In this document: one piece after another, positions 21,840-35,284 of the stretch | Layout: each line of letters opens with the position of its first letter | Position numbering within the stretch: the stretch's first letter is position 1 | Virus record (IMG/VR): IMGVR_UViG_3300048927_000793 | Coordinates: 1 to 36,882 of that record | DNA length: 36,882 nucleotides | Direction: 5' to 3' (one strand) | Origin: a virus | The notes under the pieces: model-generated | The model's input: the letters and a program-made list of their open reading frames with translations, nothing else | Database searches by the model: none | Told to the model about the DNA's origin: nothing | Program-made: the position numbers and the translations under genes

Positions 21840-22208
21840 TCAGGGCCGATTCCAAGGGTGGTTCGGATCGAGCGGCAGCCCGCCTGCCGTGCAGCCAACG
21901 ACGCGCCCAGACTTCTCCATCCGCTGCTTCGTGGAGTCATGACAGAACTTGCAGAGCGATTGCCAGTTCGACTGGCTCCAGAAGAGCTTCCACGCACCCT
22001 TGATACGCAGCGCGTCACCGCTCTCCTTGGCATCCTTCAGACGAGGCGCTTCGATGTGGTCGACGACCAATGCAGCAACCGGACGATCCGGCGTCGAGCA
22101 CATAACGCAGAAGGGGTGTTCACGCAGGTAAGCATCCCGAGACTTCTGCCAACGGTACGTGTAACCACGCGCCGAGCTGCTGCCGCGCGCATCTGTTGAC
22201 TTGATCAT
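21840..22208 (-). CDS. HNH endonuclease of the terminase complex (HK97 gp74-like)
   Basis: The 122-residue protein carries a zinc-supported HNH fold: C34xxC37, the 'VVDHIEAPRLKD' strand with D50-H51, N81 in 'NWQSLCKFCH', and C86xxC89-H90 closing the zinc site. Small HNH enzymes encoded next to terS assist cos cleavage in HK97-type phages. ATG 22208 overlaps the holin stop as ATGA and has GGAAGG upstream. The longer frame to 22445 is a shadow of the holin gene. Confidence 0.92.
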   Translation of the reverse strand: MIKSTDARGSSSARGYTYRWQKSRDAYLREHPFCVMCSTPDRPVAALVVDHIEAPRLKDAKESGDALRIKGAWKLFWSQSNWQSLCKFCHDSTKQRMEKSGRVVGCTAGGLPLDPNHPWNRP

Positions 22209-22495
22209 CCGACCTTCCAAACGCTTGAGAGATTGCCAGCGCTCTTGCACACCGATCCCACGAACACTGCAAGGATCAACACCAGCGGGCAGGCGTATGG
22301 CGGAACCACCAACAAACCCTTGCTGATGAACACCATCGTCGCGCCTGCACTCGCCATCACTGCCCATGCGAGACAACTCATGGCCCGACGGAACCGTGCG
22401 CCGTTGCGGCGAAAGGTGAACAGCCGAATGAACAGCACAAGACACAACCAGAATGTTGCCTGCGTGAGCACTGCGGGAATCAGTGGATTATCCAT
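22205..22495 (-). CDS. Holin-like membrane protein (holin family 3-like)
   Basis: The 96-residue protein has three hydrophobic segments, about residues 11-27, 38-57 and 61-80. Basic residues (RRNGARFRR) lie between the first and second, and the C-terminus is short and polar. The pattern resembles phage holin proteins that form lesions in the inner membrane. GGAGGTCAGG precedes the ATG. It overlaps the upstream holin-like gene by eight bases and the HNH gene by four. Confidence 0.72.
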   Translation of the reverse strand: MDNPLIPAVLTQATFWLCLVLFIRLFTFRRNGARFRRAMSCLAWAVMASAGATMVFISKGLLVVPPYACPLVLILAVFVGSVCKSAGNLSSVWKVG

Positions 22496-22853
22496 CCTGA
22501 CCTCCGGGCTGATCTGTGAGTTTGCCTCCCCGCTTGATGGCGGCAAGCGCGACAGTCACGACCAGTACCGCTGCCCCGAATGCTGCTGGCCCTGAATACC
22601 TGAAGGGGCGAATACCCCAGAGTTCGAAATCACCCATGGCAGGGGCAAACAGGTAGCCCATCACGACTGACACAAGGAAGAACACCAGGCGTTTCCACAC
22701 CGGCAATTCCTCCGTCGTCATGAAGAAGACGATTGCACCAGCCAGCGCACCGACTGCTGCATAACTATCAACCCCGGCAATCAGCCCGCCGAATCCGGCA
22801 CCGGCGGCACCGGCCACCACGACAGATGCGGTCGTGCTTGCTGGCTCACCCAT
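22488..22853 (-). CDS. Putative holin or antiholin (Gly/Ala-rich membrane protein)
   Basis: The 121-residue protein has a Gly/Ala-rich hydrophobic first half (about residues 10-44) and further transmembrane segments at about 54-70 and 85-108. A charged linker 'TTEELPVWKR' lies between. This fits the putative holin families seen in Pseudomonas prophages. GGAGTACGAGC precedes ATG 22853. As the first gene of the late transcript and paired with a second holin-like gene, one of the two may be the antiholin. Confidence 0.68.
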   Translation of the reverse strand: MGEPASTTASVVVAGAAGAGFGGLIAGVDSYAAVGALAGAIVFFMTTEELPVWKRLVFFLVSVVMGYLFAPAMGDFELWGIRPFRYSGPAAFGAAVLVVTVALAAIKRGGKLTDQPGGQDG

Positions 22854-22891: not shown

Positions 22892-22914
22892 AAAACCCCG
22901 CCGGAGCGGGGTTT
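22892..22914 (-). terminator. Terminator in the late leader, before the first holin gene
   Basis: An 8-bp stem AAACCCCG/CGGGGTTT with a six-base loop ends in TTTTC on the minus strand. It lies between the P-box-like array and the holin genes, in the position of lambda tR'. It could act in both directions. Confidence 0.7.
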
Positions 22915-23024
22915 GATGACGGCCTGGGGATGGCCGGGTGTAGCTGCACAGCACTGTGCTCAATGGGCGGTCTACCTAAGCGGTTCTCGCATATCGTGGT
23001 TACTTTTTACGCTGCTCCGGAAAG

Positions 23025-23047
23025 ACCGAAAAGAGGCGTTTTTCGGT
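23025..23047 (-). other. Leader hairpin downstream of the P-box-like array
   Basis: ACCGAAAA and TTTTCGGT form a perfect 8-bp stem around a seven-base loop. It is just downstream (minus strand) of the repeat array, so it would be at or near the start of the late transcript. Confidence 0.5.
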
Positions 23048-23048
23048 A

Positions 23049-23103
23049 CAACCAAATGTGACCAGAACGCGACCACAATACGACCACAATACGACAAAGT
23101 ACC
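23049..23103 (-). promoter_or_regulatory. P-box-like tandem 11-bp array, candidate PrtN-activated late promoter
   Basis: On the plus strand GACCAGAACGC, GACCACAATAC, GACCACAATAC and GACAAAGTACC run head to tail at 23060-23103, a period of one helix turn. Read on the minus strand, the transcription direction of the late genes, the units become ATTGTGGTCGT twice with degenerate copies on each side. They fit the pyocin P-box consensus as I remember it, ATTG-n2/3-GT-n2/3 in four or five tandem copies. A PrtN homologue is encoded at 30337-30576. Binding is inferred. Confidence 0.65.
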
Positions 23104-23114
23104 CGGACGAACGG

Positions 23115-23588
23115 TCACGCCTGCGCCCTTCCCAGCTTGGCAACCATCGCCCGACTGTGGCTGTGTTTTTGAGTCTGACCGCCCGCACCACGCGCAGCGC
23201 TATTACGATCCGCCATGATCAACAGTACCTGCTGATGAAGACGTGTAACCCAATTGCGATACGTACGATCGGCCCCTTCAGTGATACCGAGCGCCCGCAT
23301 CTGCTCTCGCATGGACATCTGCTCCAGGTAGCGAAATTGAGCCAGGCTCGACAAGGCGTCTCCCTTGGGTCCGTTCCGGCGGAGTTGAGCAACTGCAGCG
23401 TCGACCTCACTGGTTACGTGATCCATCCCTGCCTCACCGGTGATGATCCGCGAACCCGGCGTTCCGCGAGGCGCACAGCCCTTCCACTCCATGATCGACC
23501 CCATCTGACTACCGATCCCAGCGCCAAGGCCGTACCGGCGGTGATGCTCACCCCAATGCACCAACAGCTCTTCGATTTCCTTGATCAT
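23115..23588 (-). CDS. Putative late-gene regulator (Q-like) or conserved unknown
   Basis: A 157-residue basic protein beginning MIKEIEELLVHWGEHHRRYG. About residues 108-138 hold a helix-turn-helix-like segment (EQMRALGITEGADRTYRNWV then LHQQVLLIMADR), similar in style to Q and ArpU/RinA-type late regulators. The C-terminus is Ser/His/Arg-rich. Position supports this: it is the last gene of the early right operon and lies directly before the late leader, as Q does in lambda. ATG 23588 follows iteron-like repeats rather than coding sequence. The family is not firmly recognised. Confidence 0.5.
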   Translation of the reverse strand: MIKEIEELLVHWGEHHRRYGLGAGIGSQMGSIMEWKGCAPRGTPGSRIITGEAGMDHVTSEVDAAVAQLRRNGPKGDALSSLAQFRYLEQMSMREQMRALGITEGADRTYRNWVTRLHQQVLLIMADRNSAARGAGGQTQKHSHSRAMVAKLGRAQA

Positions 23589-23916
23589 GCCCCAATCCCC
23601 CGCAGAACCAGACCCAACACAAAAAACGAGATACCCAACACAAACCCGACACACAAAAAAACCATACAAATCAAATGATTAATAAATGTTGTGTTGAGTG
23701 TGTTGGGTTTGTTGGGCTTTTCAGGGTTCGCATGGAAAAAAATCCTCGCTACTGAAAGCGGTGAAATATTCTGCGCACATGCGCGCCTGCGCGCGTAAAC
23801 CCAACACACCCAACACACACCGCCACAAGCCCCGGTTTTCGGGCCTGAATGTTGTGTTAGGTCGCCAAACACAGCCCAACACACCGTCAGCACACCCAAC
23901 ACACTTTTGGACGTAC
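23589..23916. repeat. CCCAACACA iteron cluster, candidate replication origin
   Basis: This 328-base gap between the primase-helicase gene and the Q-like gene holds seven exact 9-mers. Plus-strand CCCAACACA is at 23613, 23634, 23800, 23809, 23875 and 23895, and its complement TGTGTTGGG is at 23699. Close variants lie at 23645, 23690, 23708, 23853 and 23865. Copies at 23690-23716 and 23800-23817 abut exactly every nine bases. AT-rich segments (23651-23690, 23736-23752) lie between. P4-type primase-helicases bind iterons of this sort at their origin, so this is the best origin candidate. Confidence 0.62.
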
Positions 23917-27686: not shown

Positions 27687-27715
27687 ACAATACACTTTGT
27701 ATTTTTTTCACGCAA
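27687..27715 (-). promoter_or_regulatory. PR-like promoter of cro and the right operon
   Basis: On the minus strand TTGCGT (plus 27710-27715) is spaced 17 bases from TATTGT (plus 27687-27692). The first operator (27689-27703) covers the -10 and spacer, so bound repressor would block it. Confidence 0.7.
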
Positions 27716-27762
27716 GCTCTCAATACAGTCTGTCGATTGCCCATAAAAATACGCCCTGTATT
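27689..27762. promoter_or_regulatory. Right operator cluster: three 15-bp CI/Cro sites
   Basis: The consensus AATACA-N3-TGTATT occurs at 27689-27703 (perfect: CTT centre), 27722-27736 (left half perfect, right half TGTCGA) and 27748-27762 (one mismatch: AATACG). The first overlaps the cro promoter -10. The second is centred near -43 of the cI promoter, where an activating repressor would sit. The third overlaps the cI -10. This is the OR1/OR2/OR3 logic of lambda with a different DNA code. Confidence 0.82.
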
Positions 27763-27772
27763 ATTTTGGGCA
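27737..27772 (+). promoter_or_regulatory. PRM-like promoter giving a leaderless cI mRNA
   Basis: TTGCCC (27737-27742), a 16-base spacer and TATTAT (27759-27764) place transcription start at about 27771-27772, the A of the cI ATG. No Shine-Dalgarno sequence is present. Lambda cI from PRM is also leaderless. Confidence 0.62.
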
Positions 27773-28413
27773 TGAGCGAATGGTATGAAATAGCGAAAAA
27801 AATCATGGAAACCCAGGACATCAGCCAAGAACAGATGGCTGAGCGGCTGGGCGTCACACAAGGCGCAGTGGGGCATTGGCTAAACGGCAAACGCGAACCC
27901 AAACTGGAGACAATCAACAGGTTGCTCGCGGTGCTTGGCGTGCCGGGTTTGGCGATCATCGTCCCTGATTCCGAAAAGATTTCTACCCAAGAGCCTCCCG
28001 TCCAGCCGGACCGACTTTATCGCTATCCCGTCTTGAGCTGGGTAAGCGCGGGGGCGTGGGCAGAGGCAACCGAGCCGTTTGCGCCTGGTGCGGCTGATCA
28101 GTTCGAAGTCACCGATTACAAAGCGAAAGGGCCAGCGTTCTGGCTGAAGGTCCGTGGCGATTCGATGACCGCGCCAGTAGGTCAAAGTGTGCCCGAGGGC
28201 ATGCTCATTCTCGTTGATACAGGCATTGAGCCGAGCCCAGGAAAATTGGTCATCGCCAAGCTTCCCGAAAGCAACGAAGCGACTTTCAAAAAGTTGATCG
28301 AAGACTCTGGGCAGCAATTTCTCAAAGCGCTTAATCCAGCCTATCCAATGATTCCTATGCACGAGCAGTGCAGACTGATAGGCGTTGTGAGCCTCGCGAA
28401 GATGACTCTTTAA
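27772..28413 (+). CDS. cI: CI-like repressor with S24 self-cleavage domain
   Basis: A 213-residue protein. An N-terminal helix-turn-helix spans about residues 18-40 (SQEQMAERLGVTQGAVGHWL). A LexA/CI peptidase domain begins near residue 85, with the cleavage pair Ala93-Gly94 (WVSAGAW), catalytic Ser131 (GDSM) and Lys173 (ATFKKL). The C-terminal 'LNPAYPMIPMHEQC' closely resembles lambda CI. All residues for RecA-stimulated autocleavage are present, so the prophage should be SOS-inducible. The ATG lacks a ribosome site. A strong terminator follows its stop. Confidence 0.95.
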   Translation: MSEWYEIAKKIMETQDISQEQMAERLGVTQGAVGHWLNGKREPKLETINRLLAVLGVPGLAIIVPDSEKISTQEPPVQPDRLYRYPVLSWVSAGAWAEATEPFAPGAADQFEVTDYKAKGPAFWLKVRGDSMTAPVGQSVPEGMLILVDTGIEPSPGKLVIAKLPESNEATFKKLIEDSGQQFLKALNPAYPMIPMHEQCRLIGVVSLAKMTL

Positions 28414-28846: not shown

Positions 28847-28888
28847 AATACAAATCGTATTGCTGATTTCAAATACATATTGTATTGT
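28847..28888 (+). promoter_or_regulatory. Left operators (two CI/Cro sites) and PL-like promoter
   Basis: AATACA-AAT-CGTATT (28847-28861) and AATACA-TAT-TGTATT (28872-28886, a perfect match to the consensus) lie 25 bases apart. A promoter TTGCTG (28860-28865), 17-base spacer and TATTGT (28883-28888) overlaps both. The second site covers the -10 and spacer, exactly the arrangement at the cro promoter. It would drive the plus-strand early operon and is about 1.1 kb from the right operators, allowing DNA looping. Confidence 0.8.
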
Positions 28889-29969: not shown

Positions 29970-30340
29970 ATCAGACCGCGATCACCCACGCCGTCGGCGC
30001 CTTGAAACTGGTCCCGATGTTCCTGAATCACCCCACTGTCATTAGCCGGGCAACGCTGATTGGTGCAACGACTGAAGCCCTTGCGATGTTGGAAGGCCTT
30101 CCGCCCGTGACCGTCGAACTCGCCGAAGTGTTTCGCCTGGTCGATGCCGTCGTGCAGGAGGGCCAAGTAGCTTACGTCACCCCCACCAACAGCCCGGAGC
30201 GCCCCTACGGCGCCGTCGTCTCGGACGAACGCGGCAGGCTGCTTGCGACCGCTACAGGTAAGTCGCCAAGAGGTCTCGCAGAGCTGATCCGCCTGCAGCT
30301 GCTGCCCCCAGCAGAGGGGCCGGGGGAGCACGCAGCGTGA
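29966..30340 (+). CDS. Conserved phage hypothetical protein
   Basis: A 124-residue protein (MNQTAITHAVGALKLVPMFLNHPTVISRATLIGATTEALAML...). It is mostly helical in the first half, with 'YGAVVSDERGRLLATATG' in the second. No family function is recognised. It is coupled by ATGA to the KilAC-like gene and by GTGA to the PrtN-like gene, so it belongs to the same translational unit. Confidence 0.55.
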   Translation: MNQTAITHAVGALKLVPMFLNHPTVISRATLIGATTEALAMLEGLPPVTVELAEVFRLVDAVVQEGQVAYVTPTNSPERPYGAVVSDERGRLLATATGKSPRGLAELIRLQLLPPAEGPGEHAA

Positions 30341-30576
30341 GCACAACCTTGAATCAGTTGCGCAGCGAGTTCGCAACGCCCTGTCCCACGCTCGGCGCGG
30401 TGAGAGAGCGCTATTTCTCGCACATCGCAAGCGACCGCTACCTGTTGCGCAAGATCAATGCTGGAGCCATCCAGCTGAAGGTCACTCGCCTTGGCGGGTC
30501 GAGCAAGGGGCAGCCAGTGGTCTACCTGCACGACCTGGCGGATTACCTCGACATGCAGCGCATCAACGCTGCGTGA
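30337..30576 (+). CDS. PrtN-like pyocin activator family protein
   Basis: The 79-residue protein shows the pyocin-activator pattern: 'TLGAVRERYFSHIASDRYLLRKINAGAIQLKVTRLGGSSKGQPVVYLHDLADYLDMQR'. It resembles PrtN, the transcription activator of R-, F- and S-type pyocins that binds P-boxes. It starts with GTG overlapping the preceding stop; GGGGGAG lies upstream. A P-box-like array precedes the late genes, making this the likely late activator of the phage. Length is near that of short PrtN family members. Confidence 0.82.
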   Translation: MSTTLNQLRSEFATPCPTLGAVRERYFSHIASDRYLLRKINAGAIQLKVTRLGGSSKGQPVVYLHDLADYLDMQRINAA

Positions 30577-34882: not shown

Positions 34883-35058
34883 ATGCGCCACTGCGCCGGA
34901 AGGCTCGCGTCAACAGTCGCGGCCTTTCCACCGACTGCAACGTCATATGCGACCAGTGCGGCATCCCCCGCAACAAAGGCCGCCACGACACGTGCAGCAA
35001 GAAACGGCAAGCAGCCCGCGCCGCGCGGCTGGCTGCTGACACCAACATCGATGTATGA
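34879..35058 (+). CDS. 59-residue Cys-rich (zinc-ribbon-like) protein
   Basis: A small frame starting with ATGA overlap at the methyltransferase stop encodes MNAPLRRKARVNSRGLST... It contains C20, C24-x2-C27 and H36-x2-C39, which could bind one zinc ion, and a strongly basic, Ala/Arg-rich end. GGAGGCGGC lies upstream. It fills the gap between methyltransferase and excisionase-like genes. No known family; DNA or RNA binding is only suggested by charge. Confidence 0.68.
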   Translation: MNAPLRRKARVNSRGLSTDCNVICDQCGIPRNKGRHDTCSKKRQAARAARLAADTNIDV

Positions 35059-35068
35059 GGATTCACAC

Positions 35069-35284
35069 GTGAGCGCAGCCGAAAAAATTGAGTATCACGT
35101 CATCCCAGCAGCATGGATTCGCCAGGAGCTGCTGCAACCAGTGTTCGGTTTCACCCCAGAAGCCGCGCGCAAATACCGCTCTCGCGGCCTGTGGCTGGAG
35201 AATAAGCACTGGCGTAAAGACCCGGCCAATGTCCTCGTCTACAACCGCGTAGAGATCGAGCGCTGGATGGGCGGGCAACTGTGA
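35069..35284 (+). CDS. Excisionase-like protein
   Basis: The 71-residue protein (starting with GTG, SAAEKIEYHVIPAAWIRQELL...) has 'FTPEAARKYRSRGLWLENKHWRKDPANVLVYNRVEIERWM', a winged-helix pattern of small excisionases. GAGG precedes the GTG at eight bases; ATG 35051 lacks a ribosome site. It lies directly before int with a GTGA overlap, the usual xis-int order. It should bend DNA and favour excision. Confidence 0.82.
   Translation: MSAAEKIEYHVIPAAWIRQELLQPVFGFTPEAARKYRSRGLWLENKHWRKDPANVLVYNRVEIERWMGGQL

Follow-up and report, generated by a model that had tools for sequence, protein, structure and literature searches.

Described systems and the element under study

The closest described system is the PrtR-PrtN control of the R/F- and S-pyocins of Pseudomonas aeruginosa, the wiring of which runs from RecA over the repressor and prtN to the P-box (PMC8609362). 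The published pyocin P-box is composed of four repeats of 10-11 nt with the pattern ATTGnn(n)GTnn(n) (PMC4905994). OQ658366.1, an R-pyocin record, has the holin gene, the P-box stretch, PA0613 and ptrB on the same strand, and prtR and prtN on the opposite one; the gap between PA0613 and the holin gene comprises ATTGCAGTGGATTGTTGAGAAGGCATTGCCGGGCT, then GGTAAAAAGT and then a terminator, with a TAAAAA block after the P-box. Another PF11112 protein, RdfN of the dusA-specific islands, is likewise a small DNA-binding protein, but acts in excision together with an integrase partner (PMC8409611); such members presumably form another clade, and a late array has not been reported for them. With antitermination by lambda Q and AlpA the locus described here shares a late operon behind a leader terminator and a regulator gene just upstream, whereas its array lies 5' of the promoter block and is presumably read by PrtN and not by the neighbouring protein.

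The stretch of viral DNA analysed here (the window, 36,882 nt) has an S24-type repressor, a PF11112 protein as putative activator and a P-box array of 10-11 bp repeats in common with the pyocin systems. Apart from inserted phage genes, its gene order is that of the R-pyocin in OQ658366.1, and it encodes a homologue of ptrB with 47% identity. It differs from the pyocin systems in that it is a complete temperate contractile-tailed Pseudomonas phage with a PrtN of a separate clade, that its array is placed one palindrome further from the -10 block and that the array units diversify between phages. The original prediction of a myophage was borne out by a tail sheath gene (E 9e-197), which identifies a contractile tail. 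Terminase, portal, major head protein and integrase are all encoded, whereas a tailocin is headless and has no capsid, terminase or integrase; the element is a phage and not an R/F-pyocin (tailocin).

An 11-bp array ahead of the late genes

Sequence, shuffles, lag-11 periodicity and covariation defined an array of helically phased units next to a gene for a helix-turn-helix protein:

23115..23588, minus strand: PA0613-like gene (phrog_4300), 157 aa, helix-turn-helix protein, possible antiterminator or co-factor
23047..23101, minus strand: P-box-type array, some 4.5 units of 11 bp in helical phase, putative binding site of the PrtN-like protein
23098-23091, minus strand: half unit TTTGTCGT
23090-23080, minus strand: unit 1, ATTGTGGTCGT, fits the published P-box exactly
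23079-23069, minus strand: unit 2, ATTGTGGTCGC, fits the published P-box exactly
23068-23058, minus strand: unit 3, GTTCTGGTCAC, degenerate, departs from the P-box consensus
23057-23047, minus strand: unit 4, ATTTGGTTGTA, degenerate, departs from the P-box consensus

On the minus strand, positions 23098 to 23047 thus read TTTGTCGT-ATTGTGGTCGT-ATTGTGGTCGC-GTTCTGGTCAC-ATTTGGTTGTA, starting 17 nt past the stop codon of the PA0613-like gene. The four 11-bp units that had been proposed at 23049-23103 were confirmed, with coordinates correct to within about 2 nt. As in a P-box, about four tandem repeats, here of 11 nt, are located 5' of the genes that they would control; the proposed agreement with ATTG-n2/3-GT holds exactly for units 1 and 2 and fails for the degenerate units 3 and 4. 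The position between a Q-like gene and the holin genes also proved correct, but the Q-like gene belongs to phrog_4300 and its product, which resembles PA0613 only weakly, matches no Pfam family.

The array is real and not a product of chance. Scored as a chain of four P-box units it obtained 21; among 60 dinucleotide shuffles of the complete window none equalled this value (two of the 60 got to 20), nor did any of 2000 shuffles restricted to the intergenic stretch. Across 81 related loci the self-identity at lag 11 amounts to 0.58 in the array segment vs 0.24-0.26 in the flanking segments. A scan with a unit profile built from the relatives found no second array in the window, so the one at the late promoter is the only one. 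An accidental, coding or replication feature that happens to resemble a P-box can practically be dismissed: perfect ATTGnnGT arrays do exist in viral contigs without PF11112, but position, period and spacing are kept in the 81 loci while the sequence changes, and the covariation described below contradicts it.

The ATTGnnGT motif was not accepted as evidence by itself. Three exact ATTGnnGT units, scanned for blindly, occurred in 39 viral contigs, mostly without PF11112, and in one of 398 Pseudomonadaceae genomes, and near other PF11112 loci of the family no P-boxes were found at threshold. Because most viral contigs with perfect arrays are without PF11112 and the arrays of many true relatives have diverged and no longer fit ATTGnnGT, the consensus alone is poor evidence. 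Perfect 11-bp ATTGnnGT tandem arrays are present in L219, L226, L236, L244, L246 and other contigs that are apparently unrelated to the phage group of the window; PF11112 is absent from them where tested, and their arrays must be read by another protein.

Putative late promoter and leader

Following the array 5' to 3' on the minus strand, there are an imperfect palindrome, a -10 block, a strong terminator and the holin gene:

23025..23047, minus strand: imperfect palindrome ACCGAAAA-N7-TTTTCGGT, recognized from the sequence, between array and -10 block
23002..23010, minus strand: GTAAAAAGT, putative -10 block of the late promoter, deduced from the spacing in relatives
22893..22914, minus strand: intrinsic terminator (hairpin and T-run) in the leader ahead of the holin gene
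22488..22853, minus strand: holin, first late gene (phrog_198), likely start ATG 22853
22205..22546, minus strand: second holin (phrog_217)

The holin ORF is open from 22949, and the phrog_198 match starts at residue 33 of this longer ORF. In 78 of 89 loci the -10 block, of which TATAAA variants occur in relatives, sits 36 nt after the array anchor. No match to a sigma-70 -35 element and no consensus promoter were found at the late promoter. A strict hairpin plus T-run was detected in the leader of 63 of the 89 loci. Other phages have a palindrome of different sequence at the analogous place (TGGCAG...CTGCCA). Phages with a pyocin-type PrtN also have arrays, as exemplified by L263, where five ATTGCnGGCGC-like units precede a palindrome, GGGGTATAAATC, a terminator and the start of the late genes. 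The R-pyocin late promoter of L340 (15740-16620) also has a terminator between P-box and holin gene. Further repeated elements of the region are a palindrome, GCACAGTGCTGTGC, at 22946-22961 in the late leader, a related form of which occurs in many relatives, and several direct and inverted repeats of GTGTTGGG/ACCCAACAC between primase and PA0613-like gene (23630-23910).

The PrtN-like protein and its family

The presence of a PrtN-like gene at 30337-30576, part of the original prediction, was verified by a full-length PF11112 match:

30337..30576, plus strand: prtN-like gene, 79 aa, PF11112, predicted winged helix-turn-helix, putative late activator

The match (E 1.1e-24; 86.8 bits vs a curated cut-off of 24.2) covers positions 1-74 of the 74-position profile. 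The gene is located about 7 kb from the array and 4.7 kb from the integrase gene. In the AlphaFold model (mean pLDDT 84) strands are predicted at residues 49-52 and 59-62 with a wing loop between them. A sequence search of the PDB gave no match; the best plausible fold match, although not significant (E 0.27, TM 0.55), is Cox of phage P2, likewise a small winged-helix protein, to which no sequence relation was detected. Cox binds tandem direct repeats and can serve both as excisionase and as transcription regulator.

PF11112 proteins of the Pseudomonadaceae sampled here fall into three groups, a pyocin type, an integrase-adjacent type and a phage type. In both pyocin-type representatives, the R-pyocin record L340 and L195, the repressor gene directly adjoins prtN. 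Eight of nine tested ORFs neighbouring the integrase-adjacent type were integrases, and this type is presumably RdfN-like. In the tree the pyocin group forms one clade at 100/99; the window protein, 31% identical to PrtN of L340, does not group with the PrtN next to an S24 repressor, but belongs to a separate phage clade. Three prophages (L179, L185, L211) carry two PF11112 genes, one of the phage type and one of the integrase-adjacent type.

Array and PrtN-like protein diverge together

Relatives were taken from viral contigs, genome contigs and phage records, and the stretch from the PA0613-like gene to the late genes was read. In the covariation set of 81 non-redundant related prophages an 11-bp array occupies the same place, with a unit sequence that varies along with the wing of the PrtN-like protein (wing classes assigned by eye):

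unit ATTGTGGTCGT: wing LKVTRLGG(S)xKG
unit TGCGTCAAAGT: wing VKRLHxSARA
unit GTCGAACTGCG or GTCGAAGTCG: wing TRLGG-RQG
units of the ACAACTG types: wing RTGGTRQGHP
unit TGCGCCGAAG: wing KLHxSARAQ

Over the 81 loci, array distance correlates with PrtN distance at a Spearman coefficient of 0.80 (partial 0.67; 0 of 999 permutations). The corresponding values are 0.52 (partial 0.14) for the PA0613-like gene, 0.40 (partial -0.02) for the CII-like gene, 0.28 (partial -0.08) for the primase and 0.40 (partial -0.03) for flanking DNA; two neighbours of prtN gave no covariation signal of their own in an earlier run with imperfect PA0613-like sequences. The same is seen in pairs of loci. Arrays are 38% identical in 20 pairs with PA0613-like proteins at least 80% and PrtN less than 75% identical, and 80% identical in 17 pairs with PA0613-like proteins at most 60% and PrtN at least 90% identical. 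L024 and L014, for example, share 90% identity in the PA0613-like protein, 66% in PrtN and 36% in the array, while L003 and the window share 56%, 96% and 98%, respectively. The three top covarying positions of PrtN, residues 53, 57 and 58, are located in the predicted wing loop. Since array divergence follows PrtN and neither the neighbouring genes nor the flank, and the top residues lie in the wing loop, the PrtN-like protein almost certainly binds the array. Covariation speaks for recognition and is indifferent to whether the effect is positive or negative; in principle PrtN might act as a repressor.

Directly after the PA0613-like gene the array is absent in L022, L074, L076, L080 and L091-L095. 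At least two of those array-less contigs (L224, L252) have an ATTGnnGT array elsewhere, which suggests an insertion between gene and array.

Function of the array and of its binder

From these comparisons we consider it very probable that the late promoter is activated from the array, as an upstream site, by the phage's own PrtN-family protein, which would be the cognate binder. The array is separated from the promoter by a palindrome that the R-pyocin promoter examined does not have, and this counts against the activation model, as do the two units that deviate from the consensus and the lack of a significant fold match for the PrtN model.

The alternatives that start from the same binder or the same DNA are all improbable. 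The foremost is that PrtN bound to the array works as a processive antiterminator and not as an activator of initiation. A terminator does lie between promoter and holin gene in the phage as well as in the R-pyocin, and AlpA, a DNA-damage-induced regulator of P. aeruginosa, works in this way (PMC7969949, PMC9371919); PrtN is, however, only 79 aa long and predicted to be a plain winged helix, and tandem sites ahead of a promoter that has no -35 element agree with activation of initiation, which makes this reading unlikely.

Hardly more room is left for the PrtN-like protein as an excisionase (recombination directionality factor), with the array unrelated or used in excision, even though its family, phrog_1300, is named excisionase in PHROGs and RdfN is a demonstrated directionality factor of the PF11112 family (PMC8409611). 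The sole array lies some 12 kb away from the integrase, at the late promoter, and the phage has another excisionase-like gene beside the integrase:

34883..35284, plus strand: separate excisionase-like gene (phrog_539/DUF1233, weak), overlaps the start of the integrase gene

The prtN-like gene does not adjoin its own integrase gene as an RdfN-type gene would, and the integrase has its own xis-like neighbour. Moreover, integrase-adjacent PF11112 proteins form a different clade, and the occurrence of both types in one prophage indicates a division of labour, which argues against a role of the phage type in excision.

We regard it as very doubtful that the PA0613-like protein binds or is loaded at the array and, as a Q/AlpA-like antiterminator, then reads through the leader terminator. 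The gene stands in a Q-like position, the terminator ahead of the holin gene is conserved, a Halomonas homologue is annotated as antitermination protein and part of the protein model weakly resembles sigma region 4. Against this, the tracking of the array by this protein is gone once PrtN is accounted for, the Phage_antitermQ profile (PF06530) gave no match, the match to AlpA is negligible (E 2.1, TM 0.29), and the array precedes the putative -10 block, unlike the sites of AlpA and Q, which are found between -35 and -10 (PMC7969949). Antitermination by the PA0613-like protein on top of PrtN activation is possible; judged from its model, the protein may be a candidate helper for the passage of the leader terminator by the polymerase.

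Probable control of prtN and proposed circuit

The repressor gene and its operators are placed as follows:

27697..28413, plus strand: CI-like repressor, C-terminus of the S24/LexA type, ATG 27773 probably the true start
27689-27703, plus strand: repressor operator AATACACTTTGTATT, between CI and Cro
27748-27762, plus strand: repressor operator AATACGCCCTGTATT, between CI and Cro
28847..28886, plus strand: repressor operators AATACAAATCGTATT and AATACATATTGTATT, ahead of the operon containing prtN

The palindrome AATAC-N5-GTATT has four exact matches in the window vs 0.01 expected, two at CI/Cro and two before the prtN operon. Relatives with other repressors have different palindromes, present at two sites of this stretch that are separated by more than 500 bp. 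As a rule one site is close to the repressor and the other some 1.5 kb ahead of prtN; this arrangement was found in 55 of 93 relatives vs 4 of 200 shuffled controls. As the same operators precede the prtN operon, the CI/Cro switch plausibly controls PrtN. Judged from these identical operators, prtN is placed under an S24-type repressor, which at sequence level is the wiring of PrtR and PrtN.

In the lysogen, a LexA-type CI would occupy the operators at CI/Cro and those ahead of the prtN operon. Cleavage of CI in the SOS response would derepress prtN, and PrtN monomers would align on the helically phased direct repeats via their winged helix-turn-helix. PrtN would then recruit RNA polymerase to the promoter without -35 element and switch on the holin, packaging, head and tail genes, with the PA0613-like protein possibly helping the polymerase past the leader terminator. 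The central proposal of the original prediction, that a pyocin-type activator fires the late genes of a CI/Cro phage, is supported by the covariation in 81 prophages, the gene order of the R-pyocin and the operators before the prtN operon, with the activation itself as a predicted step.

Implications for phages and pyocins

In the open-access literature no paper on P-boxes in prophage late promoters was found. PrtN/P-box control is known from pyocins; its use by complete phages to switch on late genes, with sites that diversify alongside the protein, is, to our knowledge, undescribed. The findings would identify the activator of the late genes in a large group of Pseudomonas prophages, suggest a phage origin of pyocin control and call the PHROGs label excisionase for the PrtN-like family into question. 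We lean towards the wider view that temperate Pseudomonas phages widely use PrtN and its array as a late switch. The recognition code between wing and bases would diversify fast and thereby confine each phage to firing its own late genes, and R/F-pyocin control would be one domesticated branch of this switch; phages with ATTGnnGT arrays might then cross-talk with host pyocins, while the other classes could not.

PrtN of prophage Lodos has been proposed as a possible activator of the host pyocin (PMC11846083). It is 40% identical to the window protein, and LPPA56 (L017), with an equally distant PrtN match, carries an array of another class, CCCCGTCAGCC; such a PrtN should therefore act first on its own late promoter. 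The matched proteins and sites offer a ready test bed for specificity change in winged-helix proteins.
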